From NCBI GenBank assembly GCA_030549335.1, contig CM060198.1:53070995-53134994 (forward strand): DNA of 64,000 nt. Reading direction: 5' to 3'. The DNA is from Pontederia crassipes (Eukaryota; Streptophyta; Magnoliopsida; Commelinales; Pontederiaceae). Below are positions 7,142 through 17,900 of this stretch, one piece after another. Both the position numbers and the translations under genes were made by a program. Under the pieces are notes generated by a model that was not told the origin of the DNA, did not search any database, and worked only from the letters and a program-made list of their open reading frames with translations. Numbering within the stretch: position 1 is the first letter of the stretch; each line of letters opens with the position of its first letter.

Positions 7142-8690
7142 TTACCCTTAAGTAAACTTATCAACTTTTATTTGATTGAAAAGAAATAAAGGGTAACATA
7201 TGTATAATTATTTCTAACCCTCCAAAAATTACTAATTTAGGTTTAATTTTAAGTTATACGACGAGTTTATTATCACCAACATAACCTCACATAAATTTTT
7301 AAAAATGATATCCAGATAAAGTGTTGACTTTTTAAACTCACTTCATAAAAGCTAAATTATATAATACGTAGTTTTCAAAAACAATAAAATGAAAATATAA
7401 ATATTTGTGACAATTTTCTAGTCAAAATATTATATTGTTTTAGTATCACATAAATATAAATTTCTTTTTTACTTGCAAATTGTTATAATTATTAAACTTT
7501 TTTAGTTGGAGATACTATTGCTTTTTAATAATTATAATTTACATTATTATAGTTAGACATGCCCATTTGGCATCAAATAATGACATGATGTGTGCCCTTT
7601 TTGTCTGAAAATTATGTTCTTATAAATAAGGATGCAATTTTTATTATTTATAATATGCTATAATTATATATATATATATTTTCTATTCTAATTATTTATA
7701 TTTGTTTTAATCAATTGTTTGTGCGTTAATTTACTTGTAAGGATTATTTGTTCGTTAATTTTGTCCAAAAATTGTTTTATTATTTGTGTGTTAATTTACT
7801 TTTGAAGTGCCAATCAACGAAGTAGATATTAGAGAATTATTATTCTAACAATTTTTGTACTTGATAAAATTTATTATTTTATAAGAATAAACTAAATCAC
7901 TCCAAAATTTTTCTATGTTCATTTCTTTATTTTTAAAATTTTATTATAATCTTCATTCTAGATTTTATTTGGTATAATAAAAGAAATAAATGCTTTATTT
8001 TAAATGTTACCGTCAACCCAAATTAAAATGCGACACAAAATTGATTGAATGAAATATTACTATTGGAGGGAAAGATTGCCCTATATAATATTGATTTTAA
8101 AAAAAAGGAAGAAATGCCATCTTCCATCATCTTAGAATTAATTGAATTCTGATTAGATCCTAGTATTTATAACTCCAACAATTGTAAAATTTTGGGTGGC
8201 ATTTTTTGGAAAATGTAAAATTAGATAAAATTTTAAGATGATGTAAAATTTTATTCTATCATCTATAACTTTGGGTAACATTTTTTGGAAAATGTAAAAT
8301 TTTCAAAACCTTGTTATGTGGAACATGATATTTTGACTTAGGAAGATATATATAATACCTTCAAATCCTTAAGATGATTGGTAGAAAATTCGATTCAAAC
8401 ATGATTTGTTTTTTTAAAATTTTCTTACTTTTTTATAATGTTTGATATTTATTTTAAGACATAAAATGTATTTTTCACTACTAAAAATTTATTTCATACT
8501 TAAGATGTTTTATTTTAATTTTTTTAAGAAAATGCAATTAAATATAGGACTAAAATTATTTTTTAAAAATAAAAAAAAATTTAGATCATTGAGTAGACTC
8601 GGATTGAGAGTATCCAACCCAAAGCTCAACCATCGATTCAACTTTGACCCGATTTAGTTAATTTAATGATAAATTTGTAATACACAACTA
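7142..8690. other. AT-rich intergenic sequence without a gene
   Basis: Both strands show only short chance ORFs. It holds a diverged copy of the 1.4-kb repeat (about 8040-8380), a remnant of the gggtcg-rich TIR family (about 8400-8660) and a short (ta)n tract near 7665-7680. Base composition rises sharply after about 8750, at the start of the next gene. Confidence 0.6.
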
Positions 8691-8961
8691 GTAAATAAAT
8701 TTAAAAATTAAAAATTTTACTAATGGCTTGAGCCGGCTTCAGTAGTGTAATTTGGCTTGAACGGTTCAACTAAACCGGCCGAAAAAAGGAACCGCGAACA
8801 GCACCCACACCACGCGCTGCTTCTGCGCCTACTTTAAACCCTAAAAACCAAAGTACAGCTAATTCGGTGTCACTTCGACGGATCAAAATGTCGAACCCGA
8901 AAATATAGAAAAAAAATAAGAGGAAGTTAAAAAGAAGAGGGGGAGCGAACCGAGGAAGGCG

Positions 8962-8979
8962 ATGAAATGGAACCTCTGA
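8962..8979 (+). promoter_or_regulatory. Five-codon upstream ORF overlapping the MCRS1-like start codon
   Basis: An ATG at 8962, five bases before the predicted start at 8967, opens a reading frame of M-K-W-N-L and a stop (TGA at 8977-8979). It overlaps the main ORF in another frame. Both ATGs have G at -3; only the main one also has G at +4. If transcripts start upstream, scanning ribosomes would meet it first. Whether it limits translation is inference. Confidence 0.4.
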
Positions 8980-11900
8980 CATCGGTATCGAAGTGGACTC
9001 CCGAGGACGATTTCCTTCTTAAGAACGCCGTCGAGGTAACCCTGATCGAATTCCTCCTCTTATTTTTCCGAAGCCGACTCCCGACTTGTAGAATAAACTT
9101 CCTAGAGTTGTCGCATTACATCATGACATCGCCGATTTCTGTATCGGAACGTGGCCAAAATTCTGAGTTCATGTTGGTATACAGGAAATTTTGGTTCCGG
9201 CCTCTGAGTTAATTGTTCTTTTTACAACTCGAAAATAGTTCCTGACTTATTGACATCGTCGATTTATGGGCATTTTTAGCCTGAAAATGGAAGGCATGTA
9301 GGGGTTTTGGGTATAGTTTGGAGCAGGAGGAAGTTTAGGGGTTGCAGAAGTTATCATATTTGTTGCTCTTCTCGGGGATAACTTTTAGTAAGTCGATGAT
9401 GCAATTGGTTGCCGTTGTGGTGGAGGGACTGTAATTTATGGGCAAATGGTATCTGTAAATTGCGTCAGTTCATTTTGTTAAAGAATGCACTAATCATACT
9501 GTTCTTTTTCCTTATATGATGACTGCTATTATAGTTGCTTAGCATACCCTCCAGTTTTCCTACTCTGATATTGGAATCTATTAATAAGTCAGTGCTGAAA
9601 CTCATTGAATATATTGCAAGAAAACAGTAAAGTAGCATTTTTTCTTTAAGATTGTTTAAGAAACTATTTCTCTTCATGAGTGATCCTGATGATTCTTCTG
9701 TTTCTTCTTAAACGAGTGATTACATGACTATGGTGTGGTTGATTGTCAAATTTGTAGGCCTATTGCGTCTTTCAATATAAGGTGAAGCTTTGGCTTTTAA
9801 CAACACATCATATGTATGTGTGTAGTGATACAAAGAAAAGGAAAATCCATTTACCTGCAGTACCATTTTAGGATTTTTAGTAGACAGATTAGTGGATAAC
9901 TAAAAATCACTTTAGAGAAAAAGAGATATGCCCACTCCAGTTGAGTGTTTTTTTATCAGATTCCAGAAAATGCAAAAAGTACAATGACTCCATCCCATAA
10001 ATATTGATATTGTGGATTTTGGCCTTCGACTCTTTTATGGACATATTGAGTTATAGCTGGCATATTATCCGATGGACCTGTACGGATTTATGGACGTGGG
10101 CTGTCACAAGGTTGTTAATATCGTGAGTCAAACTCTTTAAACTCGTACGAGTTTAAGAGTTTATGCCTCACAATCGACTCAACTCGGAGCTGACTCAAAA
10201 AATGAGGTGAACTCGGGGTGACTCACGAGTCAACTTGTTAGAATCGGTTAACTCGGTTCAATCGTCGGAGTCATGTAGTAAACTCGGCGAGTCCGAGTTC
10301 CTATGGAGAAAACGACCAAGATGCCAATTTGCTCCATCGCACGGCTGAGACCACAGCGTCAAAGTATCCATCCAAGAAGGGCGGCCTCCAAGCATCGCCC
10401 TTGTAGCACCTGATGCGCTCCTGCATGCCCTCCACGATCAGGTCTTCTGCTGCCAGCCGAGCTCGACAACCCGGCCAGTACTCCTCATCCTCATCGCCAT
10501 GGCATTGAGGAGGATCCCCAGTCCGCAGACGACATCTAAGGGTGGTGCAGATGGCGGATCAGTCAGAGGTGTGGGCGAGCATGCGCTGCACAATGTCCCA
10601 ACACAAGGTGAGGAAGGAGTGGAGGCCGTTACCAGCCGCGTAGAAGAGGCATAGAGAACAAAGGGCACAACCACGGAGCCCTCCAGCGGCGGATCAGAGG
10701 AGCGGGGAGCAGGATGCCTGACAGCAAGGAGCGCAAGAGGACGAGTAATGAAGGGAAGTAGAGTAAGTGGAGCATGGAAAGGGTGGTGAATAGGGGCCGC
10801 GTGGAAGAACATGAAGGCGACGGTATTCCACTCGTCAGTGCCATATATGTAGAGAGGGAGACTTCTTTCCCATATGGGCTCCACCGTGTTAACTAAGTGC
10901 AAAGAGATAGAGTCCACCGAAACTTAAAAGGAGTTGAATAATATCAAGAAATCATAAATGCTATATTTTTTTCCTTTTCCATCCAGGTTTGTTATTTTGT
11001 TAATCAATTATATGAACCAACTCGATTGGAAATATTTTTTTCTAAAAGAGGCTTAGCACGTACAATCGCAAGAATGGAAAAAAAATACTAGAAATGCAGA
11101 GGCGGTGAGAAATATTAAAAATAACATGAGCTCTGATAGAAGTCCCCTGAAACAAACTCTGGAAGTCCTAAGAAAAGAGAAAAAAATTAGGAGGGAAAAG
11201 ACATGAACACATAGTAGCATGGCAGGAACTAATTTTTTGAAATATTAGATCATTTTAATTAAATATTAGTAGGTTTTATAGTTCAAATCTTATTTGAATG
11301 TGTTACATGTGTGTGTGTGTGTGTATATAATTATTTTATTCGAAACATAGACTCTACGATTTTACGACTCGATTTTATGATACGAGTTTAGAGGACACAA
11401 AACGAATTTACTTAAACTCTCGATATTGACAACCTTGGGCTGTCACTTCTCAGGAAAAAATATTAGGGTAAATGGATGAAAGCCTAAGGGTAGAAGTTAA
11501 TGAAATTGATTGCTGTAAATGTTTCTGGTATGAATTCTTCATCATGAAGGTTTTTATTGTTGAATTATCTTATGTTGCATGAGAGGTACTTGTTTGTTTG
11601 TTTGATAGTTTCTTTGCATGAGGTGAGTCAGATCTTGCATTGTATGTGCAGGCAGGTGCTTCCTTGGAGTCATTGGCTAAAGGTGCAGTACATTTTTCCC
11701 AAAGCTTTACTGTTCGTGAATTGCAGGAGCGGTGGTTTTCACTCCTCTATGATGATGAAGTCTCAGCAGAAGCTTGTATTCATGTTATTGAATTTGAAAT
11801 GGAAACTTCTTATTCCAATGCTGCCAGGGCTAGCCGAGCTTGTAGTTTGAAAGGAAAAGATTCGTCATCCACAAAGCGAAAAGTAGGTAGCGTGCGGAGC

Positions 11901-14900
11901 CATTACTATACTACGCGAAAGAGAATTTCTTTAGAAACTTGTCTTTTAAATCCTGGGTTCCCTTTGCATCCCTTTCCCATCACATCTAACAGTGATTTTG
12001 CATGTGGAGATGGATTGAATTTCCCAGACCAGCATTCTGTTGATAACTTGTCTCTAGGACAAGACCTTCTGACCTGCTATGGGCATCCAGACGGTATATA
12101 TGATGAAGAAATGTTGAGGTTTAATTCTGTTGATGCTGGCGGCAATAATGCTCAACATTCATTTCATGCAAATTATGTTGGCACTATTCAGGGGGAAGAT
12201 CCAGGGGAAATGATGGAACAGGACTGTATAAATAGGTATAATGAAAATGCATGCATTGAGTCATTTGAAAAAACAGAGATAGAGAATGCACATCAATCAT
12301 TTGAGAATGATTTCATACAGAAAGATCCTTCACAGATGCTTCAGAATGTTGTTGCTCTAGATGGTCTTTCGGATGTTAATGAAATCAGGCTGACAGAAAC
12401 ATTGGTTAAAGGGAACCCTTCTGATAATGATGTTGTAGGAACCAAGGCTTTACCTAGTCCAGGTTCAAATGATGAATACCATGGTGGTTCAACAAAAAAC
12501 AATAATGTAAGCTTGCAGGTTCCACAATGTGGACTCGATTGTTCATCTCCTGTGGTTGGACTGCCTCTGTGGAGAGTGGGATCTGACGTTTCTCAAGAAA
12601 CTTTGCCAATTAATATGCAATACGACAACAAAGAATTAATAACTGGGGTTGTAGATGGTAACAATGTGAACAATAAGAATGACAGGGAGGCAAATGTTGG
12701 ATTAATTCAAGAAAATAACCTCATGGATATTTCTATGGAGTTCCCTGCAGATGATCGCCTATATTTTTTTGAAGTGGATGATAAAGTTGTTGATGAAACA
12801 TCTTCTCTACATGAGTTGGGCTCCATCTTATTGAATTCTCCTAGCGATGAACATGCAAATGATGTACATGACCCAAAAGAAGCAACAAAAGTGGATCCAA
12901 ACCTTGATGTGACAGCTTCAGGAGAAACCAGCAAAAACTGTGGTGACGAAGTCTCTGGTAATGACGTTGATCTTTTTGATATTGTTTCTGAAGAAACTGC
13001 CCCATCTGCTGCTCCAATATTGCTCAACACCGCAGAACCTCATGAGACTCTAGTTTGTGTGTTGAATACAGAAGACACTGAAATCCCAGACAATGATGAT
13101 GTTGTTATCCCTGTTCAACTTCCATCTCAATCTTCATCTTCTTTAAATCTGTTGTCCAGTGATAGAAAACGACTGATAAGAGAGTCAAATATGGTAAAGG
13201 AGAAACATTTGCCAACTGGACAAACTTCTGTTGCAGGTATGAGGACAAAGTCATTGAATTCTGGGTTCATGCAATCAATTGATGATTGTACTGCTGACAA
13301 TCAGTCACTTGATCATGATTTTGTAGCTGGAGTTTCTGGTGATCCAAGTGTTGCCACAAAGGACCCAAAGTTTTGTAAACTACAAACTGTTTCCCCTGTA
13401 CTAAAGGAAAACAACGCGACCTGTACTTTGGATAAACAAGTCAAGCTTGATTCTTCTGTGGGTTCACATTTAGCGAATCCAGCTTTAGCATCTGGTCATA
13501 CCAAATGCTACTCTCAAAATATCGTTAATGGCTGCAAAAAGGAAATCAATGTGCAAGCGACATTACCTAATTGCACATTGCCATTGCATCCAGAAATGGA
13601 ATCTGCTGCAGGTGTGTCCATTTCAGAACAAGAAGGGCAACTGTCTGGGAGTGAAGATGACGTGCCTAGTTTCTCTGATGTTGAGGCAATGGTAAAATAT
13701 ATTATTTTAATAAAGGACAGTTATGCTTTATGTTGCTATTATTTAGTCTAGATCAGTTCATGTAGCGAGTAAGCACAATAAGCTTATACTGAATATTCTT
13801 TGCAGATACTCGATATGGATTTGGGGCCATATGATCAAGAGTCCTATTTGTTCGCGAAGGAAGGTACCTCTTCTTCCAAAATGTGCACAATTTCTTGTGC
13901 TGGTAATACTTACTGATTTATTTTTCCCATTATGTAATAGATTCACGCTACCAGTCAATCCATGGAAAGAAAAACATTATAAGGTTGGAACAAGGGGCTC
14001 GTGCATGTATGAATAGATCAGCTTTATGTCATGGAGCTTTTGCAGTTCTTTATGGCCACCGTCTGAAACATTTCATAAGGAACTCTGAGGTGATTGAATT
14101 ATGCACTACATTCCAATTTCTTTGCGCCTTTAGCTGTTGTTGCCTGAGTATTAGGCCTTATTTTTGGGCGTCTGATGTGGAGTCTTCACATTAAATGAAC
14201 TAACTGTGTAAATTGCCATGTGAACAAGGCAAGTGATTAGCTTTCCATTCAATTGCCCACATAGAGTGAATCGTCCAAGAAGTAGCATGGATATAAGTTG
14301 TTTGAATCTTGCAATCCAAGGACAAAGTGTACTTTTGTGTTTTTTGTCGATGGAAAGGATCACTACAAGTTTTGGTAGTTATCCATTTTATTAACCATGT
14401 AAAATCATGAAATTTACAAGTGTGTAAAACAGAGGCACAAGGAGAGACAAAATATGACACAAATTGGTGAGGGAACCATAAAAAAGATGCTATCCCTCTC
14501 TCCACATGCTACTAAAAAAAGGTATATAATTTGTGATATTCTCCATGTAGTTCCTCTCCCCTTAAAAAATGGTAACTAGAGTCACTGGCCACCACTGTCT
14601 CCACTCTTGATCCACACATGCTGCTAGTGCATGTAGTGAACTCCAAAAGGAGTCTGTCGTCGATGGGCTAATGGTCATGGACTGAACCTGCTTCCATACC
14701 TCTGTGGCTACAGTGTAGCCGAAAAAAAGGGTGATATCCTCCTCTTCTGATCCACACAACATGCATGAAGTGTCAAAGTTGGGTGTCTATCTTGCCTTGT
14801 ATATCCTAATTAGAACTCGACCCTGTCTTTGGTGAAGATCTTGTCTTATGCTAATAATGTGATCTAACCCCACTCGGTGGTGTATCTCTCGAAGTATGGA

Positions 14901-17900
14901 CGAGTATAACCATTGTGTAGAGAAATGGCCAAAGTACCAAGTCTAGTCGTCCCATTTGGACATGTCTAGGCAGAATCGTAAGTTCCTATCATGAAATGCA
15001 AGTATCTCCATGTTGCGGTGATCTGACTACCTAAATCTGAAATGGAGTACGGATGACAAATTCCCCAAATCTCAGGGATCTCCACTGGGATTCCCATTCA
15101 AGGTCCTAACTTCAGAAATTGTAGCCCCGTGGGGTCAGGGAAGATTGCCCCATTACAATTCTGGTGTTGGGGATCACATCTCCCCTCCTTGGGAAGGGGC
15201 GGAGCGTGGAGGAGGAGGAGGAGGAGGAGGAGGAGGAGGGTTGGGGGTTGGGGGTTTCCTGCTCCTCTCTCCTTATTCCGTTTTAGTATAGTTCATTATT
15301 TAAAAAATAAGCCTATTTTGATAACTATGCATAATTATATAAATATTGAATTATCAGCATTATTTATCTGACTTTGTGTCATAATAAAAAATATTATGTT
15401 AAAAAGTGCGTATTAGATGGGTATGAGTTGAGTGCTTTTGTATGTGTTCTTACAAAAGACGAGGTGTCCTAGTGCAATCACAAGATGTAGTAACTCCATG
15501 GTTGGAACTTGGACATAACACGCAGCGCTCGAACACCTGCATTTTGTTATTATTCCAAATACTTTGATGTTGGAGAGACCATTATCTCTCTAGTATTTTC
15601 TCCTAGGTCTCCACTATTCACTGATTGTGTTTGAGCCTTCACCACTTGAATGAAACTTTCCATTTCTTTTCCCTTTCTCGATTCCTCCTCTCATTTGGAA
15701 AAAGACCAAGAGGCGTAGCTTGCATAGTGCTGCTAGCTTCCTCTAATAAATGTGGACAACTTTTTCTTTTCGTATGGAAGTTGTGGATTTTGTTTAGCCC
15801 ATTTAGGTAGTAGTCCAAAATAACTAATTAAGTTATTCAAAATATTACATCTAATTTTTTTTCAAAATATTAACCTTTTGTATGTTGATTTGCATATATT
15901 TTTAATTTCAGATATCTTGTAAAAAAGTGTTTTAGTTCATAATATTTTGAATTATATATTATATACTTAAGCTCTCAAAAAAAATATTATATACTTAATA
16001 TGTTTTCGTTTACCCTAGGCTTTTGAACGAGCCTGATGCCCTTACAGGGTACAATACTTGCACTTATACAACAATCACTAGTTATTTTATTTCTTTACAC
16101 AATTAAATGTTGATGGCACAATGTTCATTTCTTTTTTCTTTTGTTGAGTTAAGTTATATATATTTTTTGAGAAAAGTTATATATTGTCAGCTTAATGAAA
16201 CTTATGACCTGTTCAGTGATTTGTTTCACAACAAGTTCCAGTCCTAATATCTATTTACTACTCTCTTCAGGTTAATTACTAAGTACTTGCAAATTATTTT
16301 GTTTGGCTAATCCTTTTCCGAATACATAGGTGTCGCTTGGAAGGGCAACAGAAGATGTAAAAGTTGACATTGACTTGGGAAGGGAAGGGCGTGCTAATAA
16401 GATTTCTCGGCGTCAGGTTTCTATTGTAGCTTTGGATCTTCTTTTCTATTATTTTATGTGCAAGAATTTATTGAGGAATTGCTGTTTTGTTTATTTTGCA
16501 TGTTTATGGTATTTCCAAGTTACAAAAAATGCTAGGTTACTTTAAGTTAATTCTGCATTTTTTTAAAGTGAAAAAGATGAGTATGTTGTAGTTACGCCAA
16601 AATGTTACAATCAATTCATATCATCACCCACACTCTATACATTCATTTAATTCCAGAGACAATTTTTTCAATGTAGCATCTATCTCCTCTGAAGATGCAG
16701 TCATTGTGTTGACACCAGATAGAACATATAACATGAAGGTAAACTTATTCTTGGAAGATTACCCGATCGGCTCATTCAAAAACCATAGGTGTTAGATTTT
16801 AATTGTAGATGCACACAAGCCTTTCAAGTTCTCTCTGTTTTAGGGGAATGAGTTGATATCTTCATTACAGTAATATGTAAAAGATATGGTAAGCATAATT
16901 TTCATTTCAAGACATAATTTGTATATGGATGAAACTGTCAGTACCATGAAGCTCCGATGAGCCCCCAAAGAAAGTGAAAATGCATCAAAACTGTTGAATG
17001 GACATTTATATGTTTTAAATCAATTGGAAAACATCTCTTATTTTACATTTAGAGTTGAATACTTTTCGTTCTTGATATGTCTGGAACTTTGTTGCCCCTT
17101 TGGTATTTTGAAGTGCATACGTTACAGTTTCCACTTGAACAACTTTTTTGTCACTTGTATTTGATCGTTTTGCATACAATAAATCATATAAAACATCTTA
17201 TATGTACAATTGCATAATGTAACGTTGGGTCTGTATATGATACATTATGCAGGCTATAATTAAGATGGATGAAGATGGAGCGTTTCTTCTAAAGAACATT
17301 GGCAAATGCTCTGTCTTTGTCAACAGCAAGGAAGTGCTAAGCAGGAAACGTGTATATCTATATTCTGGGTCTTTAATTGAGGTATGTGATCAGTTGTGAT
17401 TGGTTGCTCTAAAGTTTACAACAACACAACAACAACAAAGCCTTATCCCACTAGGTGGGGTCGGCTACATGGATCATACGACGCCATTCCGCTCGTTGAT
17501 CCATGTTCATGAGATTCGACAGGGTTTTACGCTGGCTGTCAGGGCCTAACACAACCCTCCTCCTTTATCCGGGCTTGGGACCGGCTATAAAACATAGGCG
17601 GAGTTTGTGTAAATATATCTATAAAGATCAGGTGAAGACCTTCCCTCTCCATTGCAAGAAAGAGAACTTTGCTTTTGACGAAAAGAAAACTGTTATTTTG
17701 ATAATTAAAGTTAAATGAACAAATAAGTCAACAATAGATTGGTAATTTCACTTAAGCAAAAGCATGTACCTGAAGAAACAAACCCATTGAATTAGAAAGG
17801 GAATCAGGAGCTAGTTCCTCTAACCCAGAAGCATGAAAAAGTTTTGATAGTCCTAACCCAACTAATCCTGCCACATAGTGACAATACTCATCATAGTCAT

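Follow-up and report, generated by a model that had tools for sequence, protein, structure and literature searches.

A probable Pack-hAT element with two captured sequences within the first intron of a Pontederia crassipes MCRS1-like gene

Pack-MULEs are known for captured GC-rich gene pieces, multi-gene chimeras and a potential for antisense transcription. Gene capture by hAT elements is also known, and few families have been resolved to their source genes, their order of capture and common source limits. A 2026 review that names Pack-MULEs raises the possibility, in its available text, that an additional, undiscovered mechanism exists for capture from unlinked genes (PMC13317346). Pack-hATs with 8-bp duplications and stepwise capture have been described in rice and maize in a survey of Pack-TYPE elements (PMC8903248). 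According to the available text of that survey, they resemble the element described here in being non-autonomous, with 8-bp duplications, terminal inverted repeats and gene pieces inside, and in acquiring, step by step within a family, a second piece that derives from a different gene, which is shown there for a Pack-PIF cluster and stated for similar hAT cases. By the same text, our element differs from them in its host, in its gene set, in its greater age (copies are 65-93% alike) and in its second piece, which lies head to head with the first and most likely comprises a gene's start codon and the sequence ahead of it. Both Pack-hATs and stepwise capture have been published before; what is new is this example of a composite family.

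Two further systems are close to ours, each as far as its available text describes it. Hatvine-6 of grapevine is likewise a hAT family with common ends and a variable interior matching host genes; its members have transposase sequence in common next to the variable region, whereas our element lacks a transposase (PMC2528002). Animal Pack-TIRs, including the frog Pack-hAT-N8_XT, share multicopy capture by a hAT element, and gap filling or template switching has been proposed for them; single-copy captures there lie mostly near the parent, whereas our sources lie on other contigs (PMC8277862).

The window, the whole stretch of DNA that was analysed, comprises 64,000 nucleotides of contig C16 (C16:53070995-53134994) in a 1.13-Gb genome of 43 contigs. 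The original prediction, made from the sequence alone, described a Pack-MULE with a captured methyltransferase fragment inside intron 1 of an MCRS1/EMB1967-like gene. The bounded element is real, and our assignments at the locus, in window positions, are as follows.

8967 to 9035, plus strand: coding part of host exon 1, predicted from an open frame followed by a gt donor at 9036
9036 to 11651, plus strand: predicted host intron 1, gt..ag, 2616 bp, from the sequence at both ends; the sites are identical at the C15 locus
10099 to 10106, no strand: left target-site duplication, ggctgtca, 8 bp
10107 to 11437, no strand: probable Pack-hAT element, ends from copy alignment
10107 to 10128, plus strand: left terminal inverted repeat, CAAGGTTGTTAATATCGTGAGT
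10107 to 10312, no strand: left terminal region, common to relatives without captured genes, including transposase-bearing ones, from copy matches
10339 to 10900, minus strand: captured methyltransferase piece, parent coding sequence with start codon, from the match to L047
10871 to 10873, minus strand: retained methyltransferase start codon, whose frame closes after 12 codons
10936 to 11233, plus strand: second captured piece, upstream sequence including the probable start codon (11219 to 11221) of an unrelated gene, from the match to L051
11234 to 11437, no strand: right terminal region, common to relatives without captured genes, from copy matches
11416 to 11437, minus strand: right terminal inverted repeat
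11438 to 11445, no strand: right target-site duplication, ggctgtca, 8 bp
11652 to 13730, plus strand: large host exon 2, which opens with MCRS_N; 13730 marks where the searched stretch stops and is not a mapped splice site

That the host is an MCRS1-like gene and that the element lies in its intron 1 held up. Removal of the predicted intron joins MEPL..NAVE to AGAS.. in frame, and Pfam detects an MCRS_N domain (PF13325, E 3.1e-9) on 11622-13751 and an FHA domain (PF00498, E 2.4e-4) at 17241-17399 in a downstream frame. The Arabidopsis homologue of the host gene, EMB1967, is presumably essential for embryos, as the original prediction stated; the word EMB1967 was absent among the matches listed in a literature search. 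Older paralogues of the host exon lie at C10:38704251-38706301 and C9:1378941-1379534. The first looks broken, with three TGA codons in its first match and a TAG and a TAA in its second, and the second (L080) reads through the expected place of intron 1, as if the intron had been lost or the copy retroposed.

We placed both ends of the element by aligning copies, which gave a length of 1331 bp. The inverted ends that had been predicted are present and extend to 22 nt with 91% complementarity. In all, 17 rows (16 loci plus the window), aligned at both ends, were compared for ends and flanks. Of the 17, 13 are accompanied by an 8-bp duplication, perfect in eight of them and with one mismatch in five, so that among the copies separate loci each have their own duplication. 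One further locus (L038) has a duplication of 9 bp instead of 8 bp at its assigned ends, and three rows (L015, L033 and L035) are without an 8-bp duplication at theirs. Terminal inverted repeats of the hAT type begin C-A-A/G-x-G, and this start, in a terminal motif CAAGG..CCTTG, was found in the window and most of the 17 rows.

The reading as a Pack-MULE, a Mutator-like element with a 10-bp target duplication, drew on the direct repeat gggctgtcac, which is indeed present in the window, and on a GC-rich core, which we confirmed; captured GC-rich gene sequence is usual for Pack-MULEs. The repeat does not stand as a target duplication. A Mutator-like element is expected to duplicate 9-11 bp, and the copies give 8 bp. 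At the C15 locus the same insertion is followed on its right by ggctgtcaT, which breaks the tenth base and fits 8 bp rather than 10. The apparent 10-bp repeat results from the element's terminal C and G, which meet identical flank bases. Additionally, the full-length relatives described below have hAT domains, and no Mutator (MULE) transposase domain was found by Pfam in the scanned pieces of them. The element thus differs from Pack-MULEs in the features that define the superfamily, namely transposase, ends and duplication length. Duplication length and hAT transposase domains refute the Pack-MULE reading, which we regard as extremely improbable. We are highly confident that the window element is an old, non-autonomous Pack-hAT.

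Sequences matching the element occur at no fewer than 58 places in the genome, with the best 40 of 441 first-look candidates scored, and with so many matches among those scored the element is not a chance pattern. We took 34 matching loci for study, and all copy counts are lower bounds. The element has no transposase frame of its own, since open reading frames and Pfam show host-gene sequence between its ends. Relatives of about 4 kb with ends of the identical type encode hAT transposase domains. One of them, L033, has a BED finger (E 2e-5), a DUF659 domain (E 2e-53) and a hAT dimerisation domain (Dimer_Tnp_hAT, E 1.5e-5) in Pfam; L027 has a DUF659 domain in a Pfam scan, and L034 has peptides that, judged by eye, resemble those of transposase relatives. 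These relatives, as possible autonomous elements, are candidate suppliers of transposase. In copies such as L027, L028, L030, L032, L033 and L034, the matches to the left part of the element end at query positions 215-218.

The captured methyltransferase on the minus strand was confirmed by intact parent genes, through matches of both DNA and protein. A protein search found four intact, intronless parent loci of 309-313 aa, arranged as two pairs on C11/C12 and C7/C8. Positions 10339-10900 match the intronless L047 at 74% identity over 547 columns and at 89% over 45, and L047 itself has a Methyltransf_11 domain (E 4.6e-15, Pfam). The profile search on the window gave less: its own translation matches Methyltransf_11 only weakly, below the profile cut-off (E 0.052), and a 159-aa window frame has no Pfam match. 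The identity of the piece therefore follows from the matches to the parent genes and not from the profile search. The piece lacks the Gly-rich stretch near the start and the C-terminal part of the enzyme, and its source span stops close to L047 4728-4732 in the copies examined. We built a tree from 15 element copies together with the four parents; rooted by choice on L049/L050, it placed the copies in one clade (support 98/97), closer under this arbitrary root to L047/L048. The protein search also returned short methyltransferase fragment matches elsewhere in the genome.

The original account of the element's content was incomplete in that it missed a second captured piece. Positions 10936-11233 match L051 3791-4047 at 68% identity. 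The match comprises about 285 bp upstream of, and including, a probable start codon, ends a few bases past the ATG, and is head to head with the methyltransferase piece. L051 lies on C8 and has a 94%-alike partner, L070, on C7; the block around the ATG is conserved in L070 and in four further loci (L073-L076), and in these four a splice-like site comes after it. From these sequence comparisons, the second piece most likely corresponds to the start codon of a putative gene plus the region upstream of it. None of eight open frames of L051 has a Pfam match above the cut-off, and one downstream frame has what we take to be a resemblance to acetyltransferases, on which we base no identification. 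We also considered that the second piece might be part of a methyltransferase locus. This was ruled out, as the source on C8 and its partner on C7 lie away from the methyltransferase loci there.

The second piece is found in 11 copies, including L017, and is absent from L021, L022, L023 and L026. The 11 two-piece copies form one clade (99/97), and a single change is needed on the tree. That four copies have the simpler form suggests that the piece was gained rather than lost, a direction that the tree alone cannot give. It lies where the methyltransferase piece meets the right end. The model of fused neighbouring insertions predicts remnants of inner ends, according to the available text of PMC8903248. 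No inner hAT end was seen between the two captured pieces in the copies examined. The position at this junction and the lack of an inner end favour template switching over fused neighbours; the junctions are old, and we only lean towards that mechanism.

All of these forms are present in one genome, which holds full-length relatives, intact source genes, a one-piece early form and a two-piece later form. With all forms and sources at hand, the rival capture models can be compared at the junctions. That the family has two unlinked sources makes it relevant to the question of unlinked capture raised in the available text of PMC13317346.

The same insertion with the same duplication is present at a 95%-identical locus on C15; the window copy and L009 are one insertion. 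C15:6577816-6586725 aligns to window 8382-17418 at 93-96% in three blocks, with more blocks to 20899, and host exon 2 is open there for 708 aa. The two methyltransferase pairs have dS values of 0.046 and 0.043, and both values suggest that the contig pairs may have arisen by one duplication or hybrid-origin event. No empty site for the window insertion was found at the places considered: the C15 locus is filled, the L004 flank is a repeat, the L005 flank leads to a copy (L006) beside an 87%-alike flank, and the 2.4 kb upstream of the C9 paralogue do not match the element ends, this paralogue also having no usable intron 1 for comparison. Judged by that flank, L005 and L006 probably represent a common insertion.

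A comparison of C16 with C15 gives 68 differences in 1306 sites for the element (5.21%) and 31 in 1267 for the flanking intron sequence (2.45%; p 3e-4), and the gap persists without CpG sites (p 0.004). The element's rate of divergence is about double that of its intron. Decay by methylation as the cause was not borne out, as C>T plus G>A are not clearly over-represented among the polarised changes (22 of 58, with A>G plus T>C at 21 of 58).

These values bear on whether the element acts on its host, the second piece as a sense start site or the methyltransferase piece as a source of antisense transcripts or small RNAs. As had been predicted, the methyltransferase piece runs antisense to its host; the second piece is sense, and its upstream sequence and probable start codon face host exon 2; the insertion has been kept in both the C15 and C16 copies. 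Yet divergence is faster in the element than in the surrounding intron, the sequence gives a short frame when read from the second captured start codon, and no Rfam match at the gathering threshold occurs over 9900-11700. We consider an action on the host quite unlikely. In its fullest version, stepwise hAT capture would have built a two-way start cassette, kept in C15 and C16, from two gene front ends that face away from a common junction head to head, with a start codon and its upstream region as the later of the two, and would have provided the MCRS1-like gene with a sense start and an antisense transcript from intron 1; this we hold to be slightly less likely still. Most likely the element is an old passenger without effect on the host gene, and its meaning for that gene is likely small.

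Some copies could instead maintain the methyltransferase piece as a protein-coding gene. Of the 14 element pairs, 13 have a dN/dS below 1 (0.36-0.89, with one pair at 2.02), in a comparison where pairs are non-independent and no base-composition term enters; the parent methyltransferases range from 0.12 to 0.24. The C15 copy has a 229-residue stop-free methyltransferase frame with an inner 187-residue ATG frame, and long open frames also occur in L011 and L023. Against this, an early stop behind the native start codon is common to six copies, in-frame stops occur across the match in many copies, and the C-terminal part of the enzyme is absent. The window frame is broken, and between the window and C15 (dN/dS 0.57, 8 silent and 15 replacement changes) the silent excess is not significant (P 0.15 under neutrality), so neutral drift is not rejected. 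A maintained coding gene is thus very unlikely.

For the passenger that we favour, the origin is as follows. It begins with the hAT family that has these ends in the genome, some members being about 4 kb long with transposase domains. One member acquired the 5' part of a methyltransferase gene, as common source limits and the tree show. An unrelated upstream region with its start codon was presumably added later, next to the methyltransferase piece on the side of the right end, the tree showing one change and its direction being our inference. The composite multiplied, probably with transposase from full-length relatives, and the insertion of one copy into intron 1 of the MCRS1-like gene preceded the separation of the C15 and C16 gene copies. 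There it would be spliced out with the intron, with no host function, moving and multiplying as a transposon and not as a gene.

Other loci of the family show features of their own. L012 and L013 are probably another insertion in common, with a flank 87% alike, and L016 and L017 have flanking sequence in common. The L004 copy, whose place is identical to L011 (C12:39173838-39174638), is flanked by a dispersed repeat with matches on many contigs (best 40 of 1261 candidates scored). L029, L038, L040 and L042 are remoter relatives by their hAT ends, with a different interior that in some may include further captured DNA. Near the left end, L027:3326-4054, L033:493-1154 and L034:478-1208 contain a GC-rich, non-transposase stretch with long open frames, possibly another captured sequence. 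At the C15 locus, two adjoining blocks, one at 6574892 and the other at 6574322, correspond to window 20899 and 39118 respectively, which leaves about 18 kb present in the window only.
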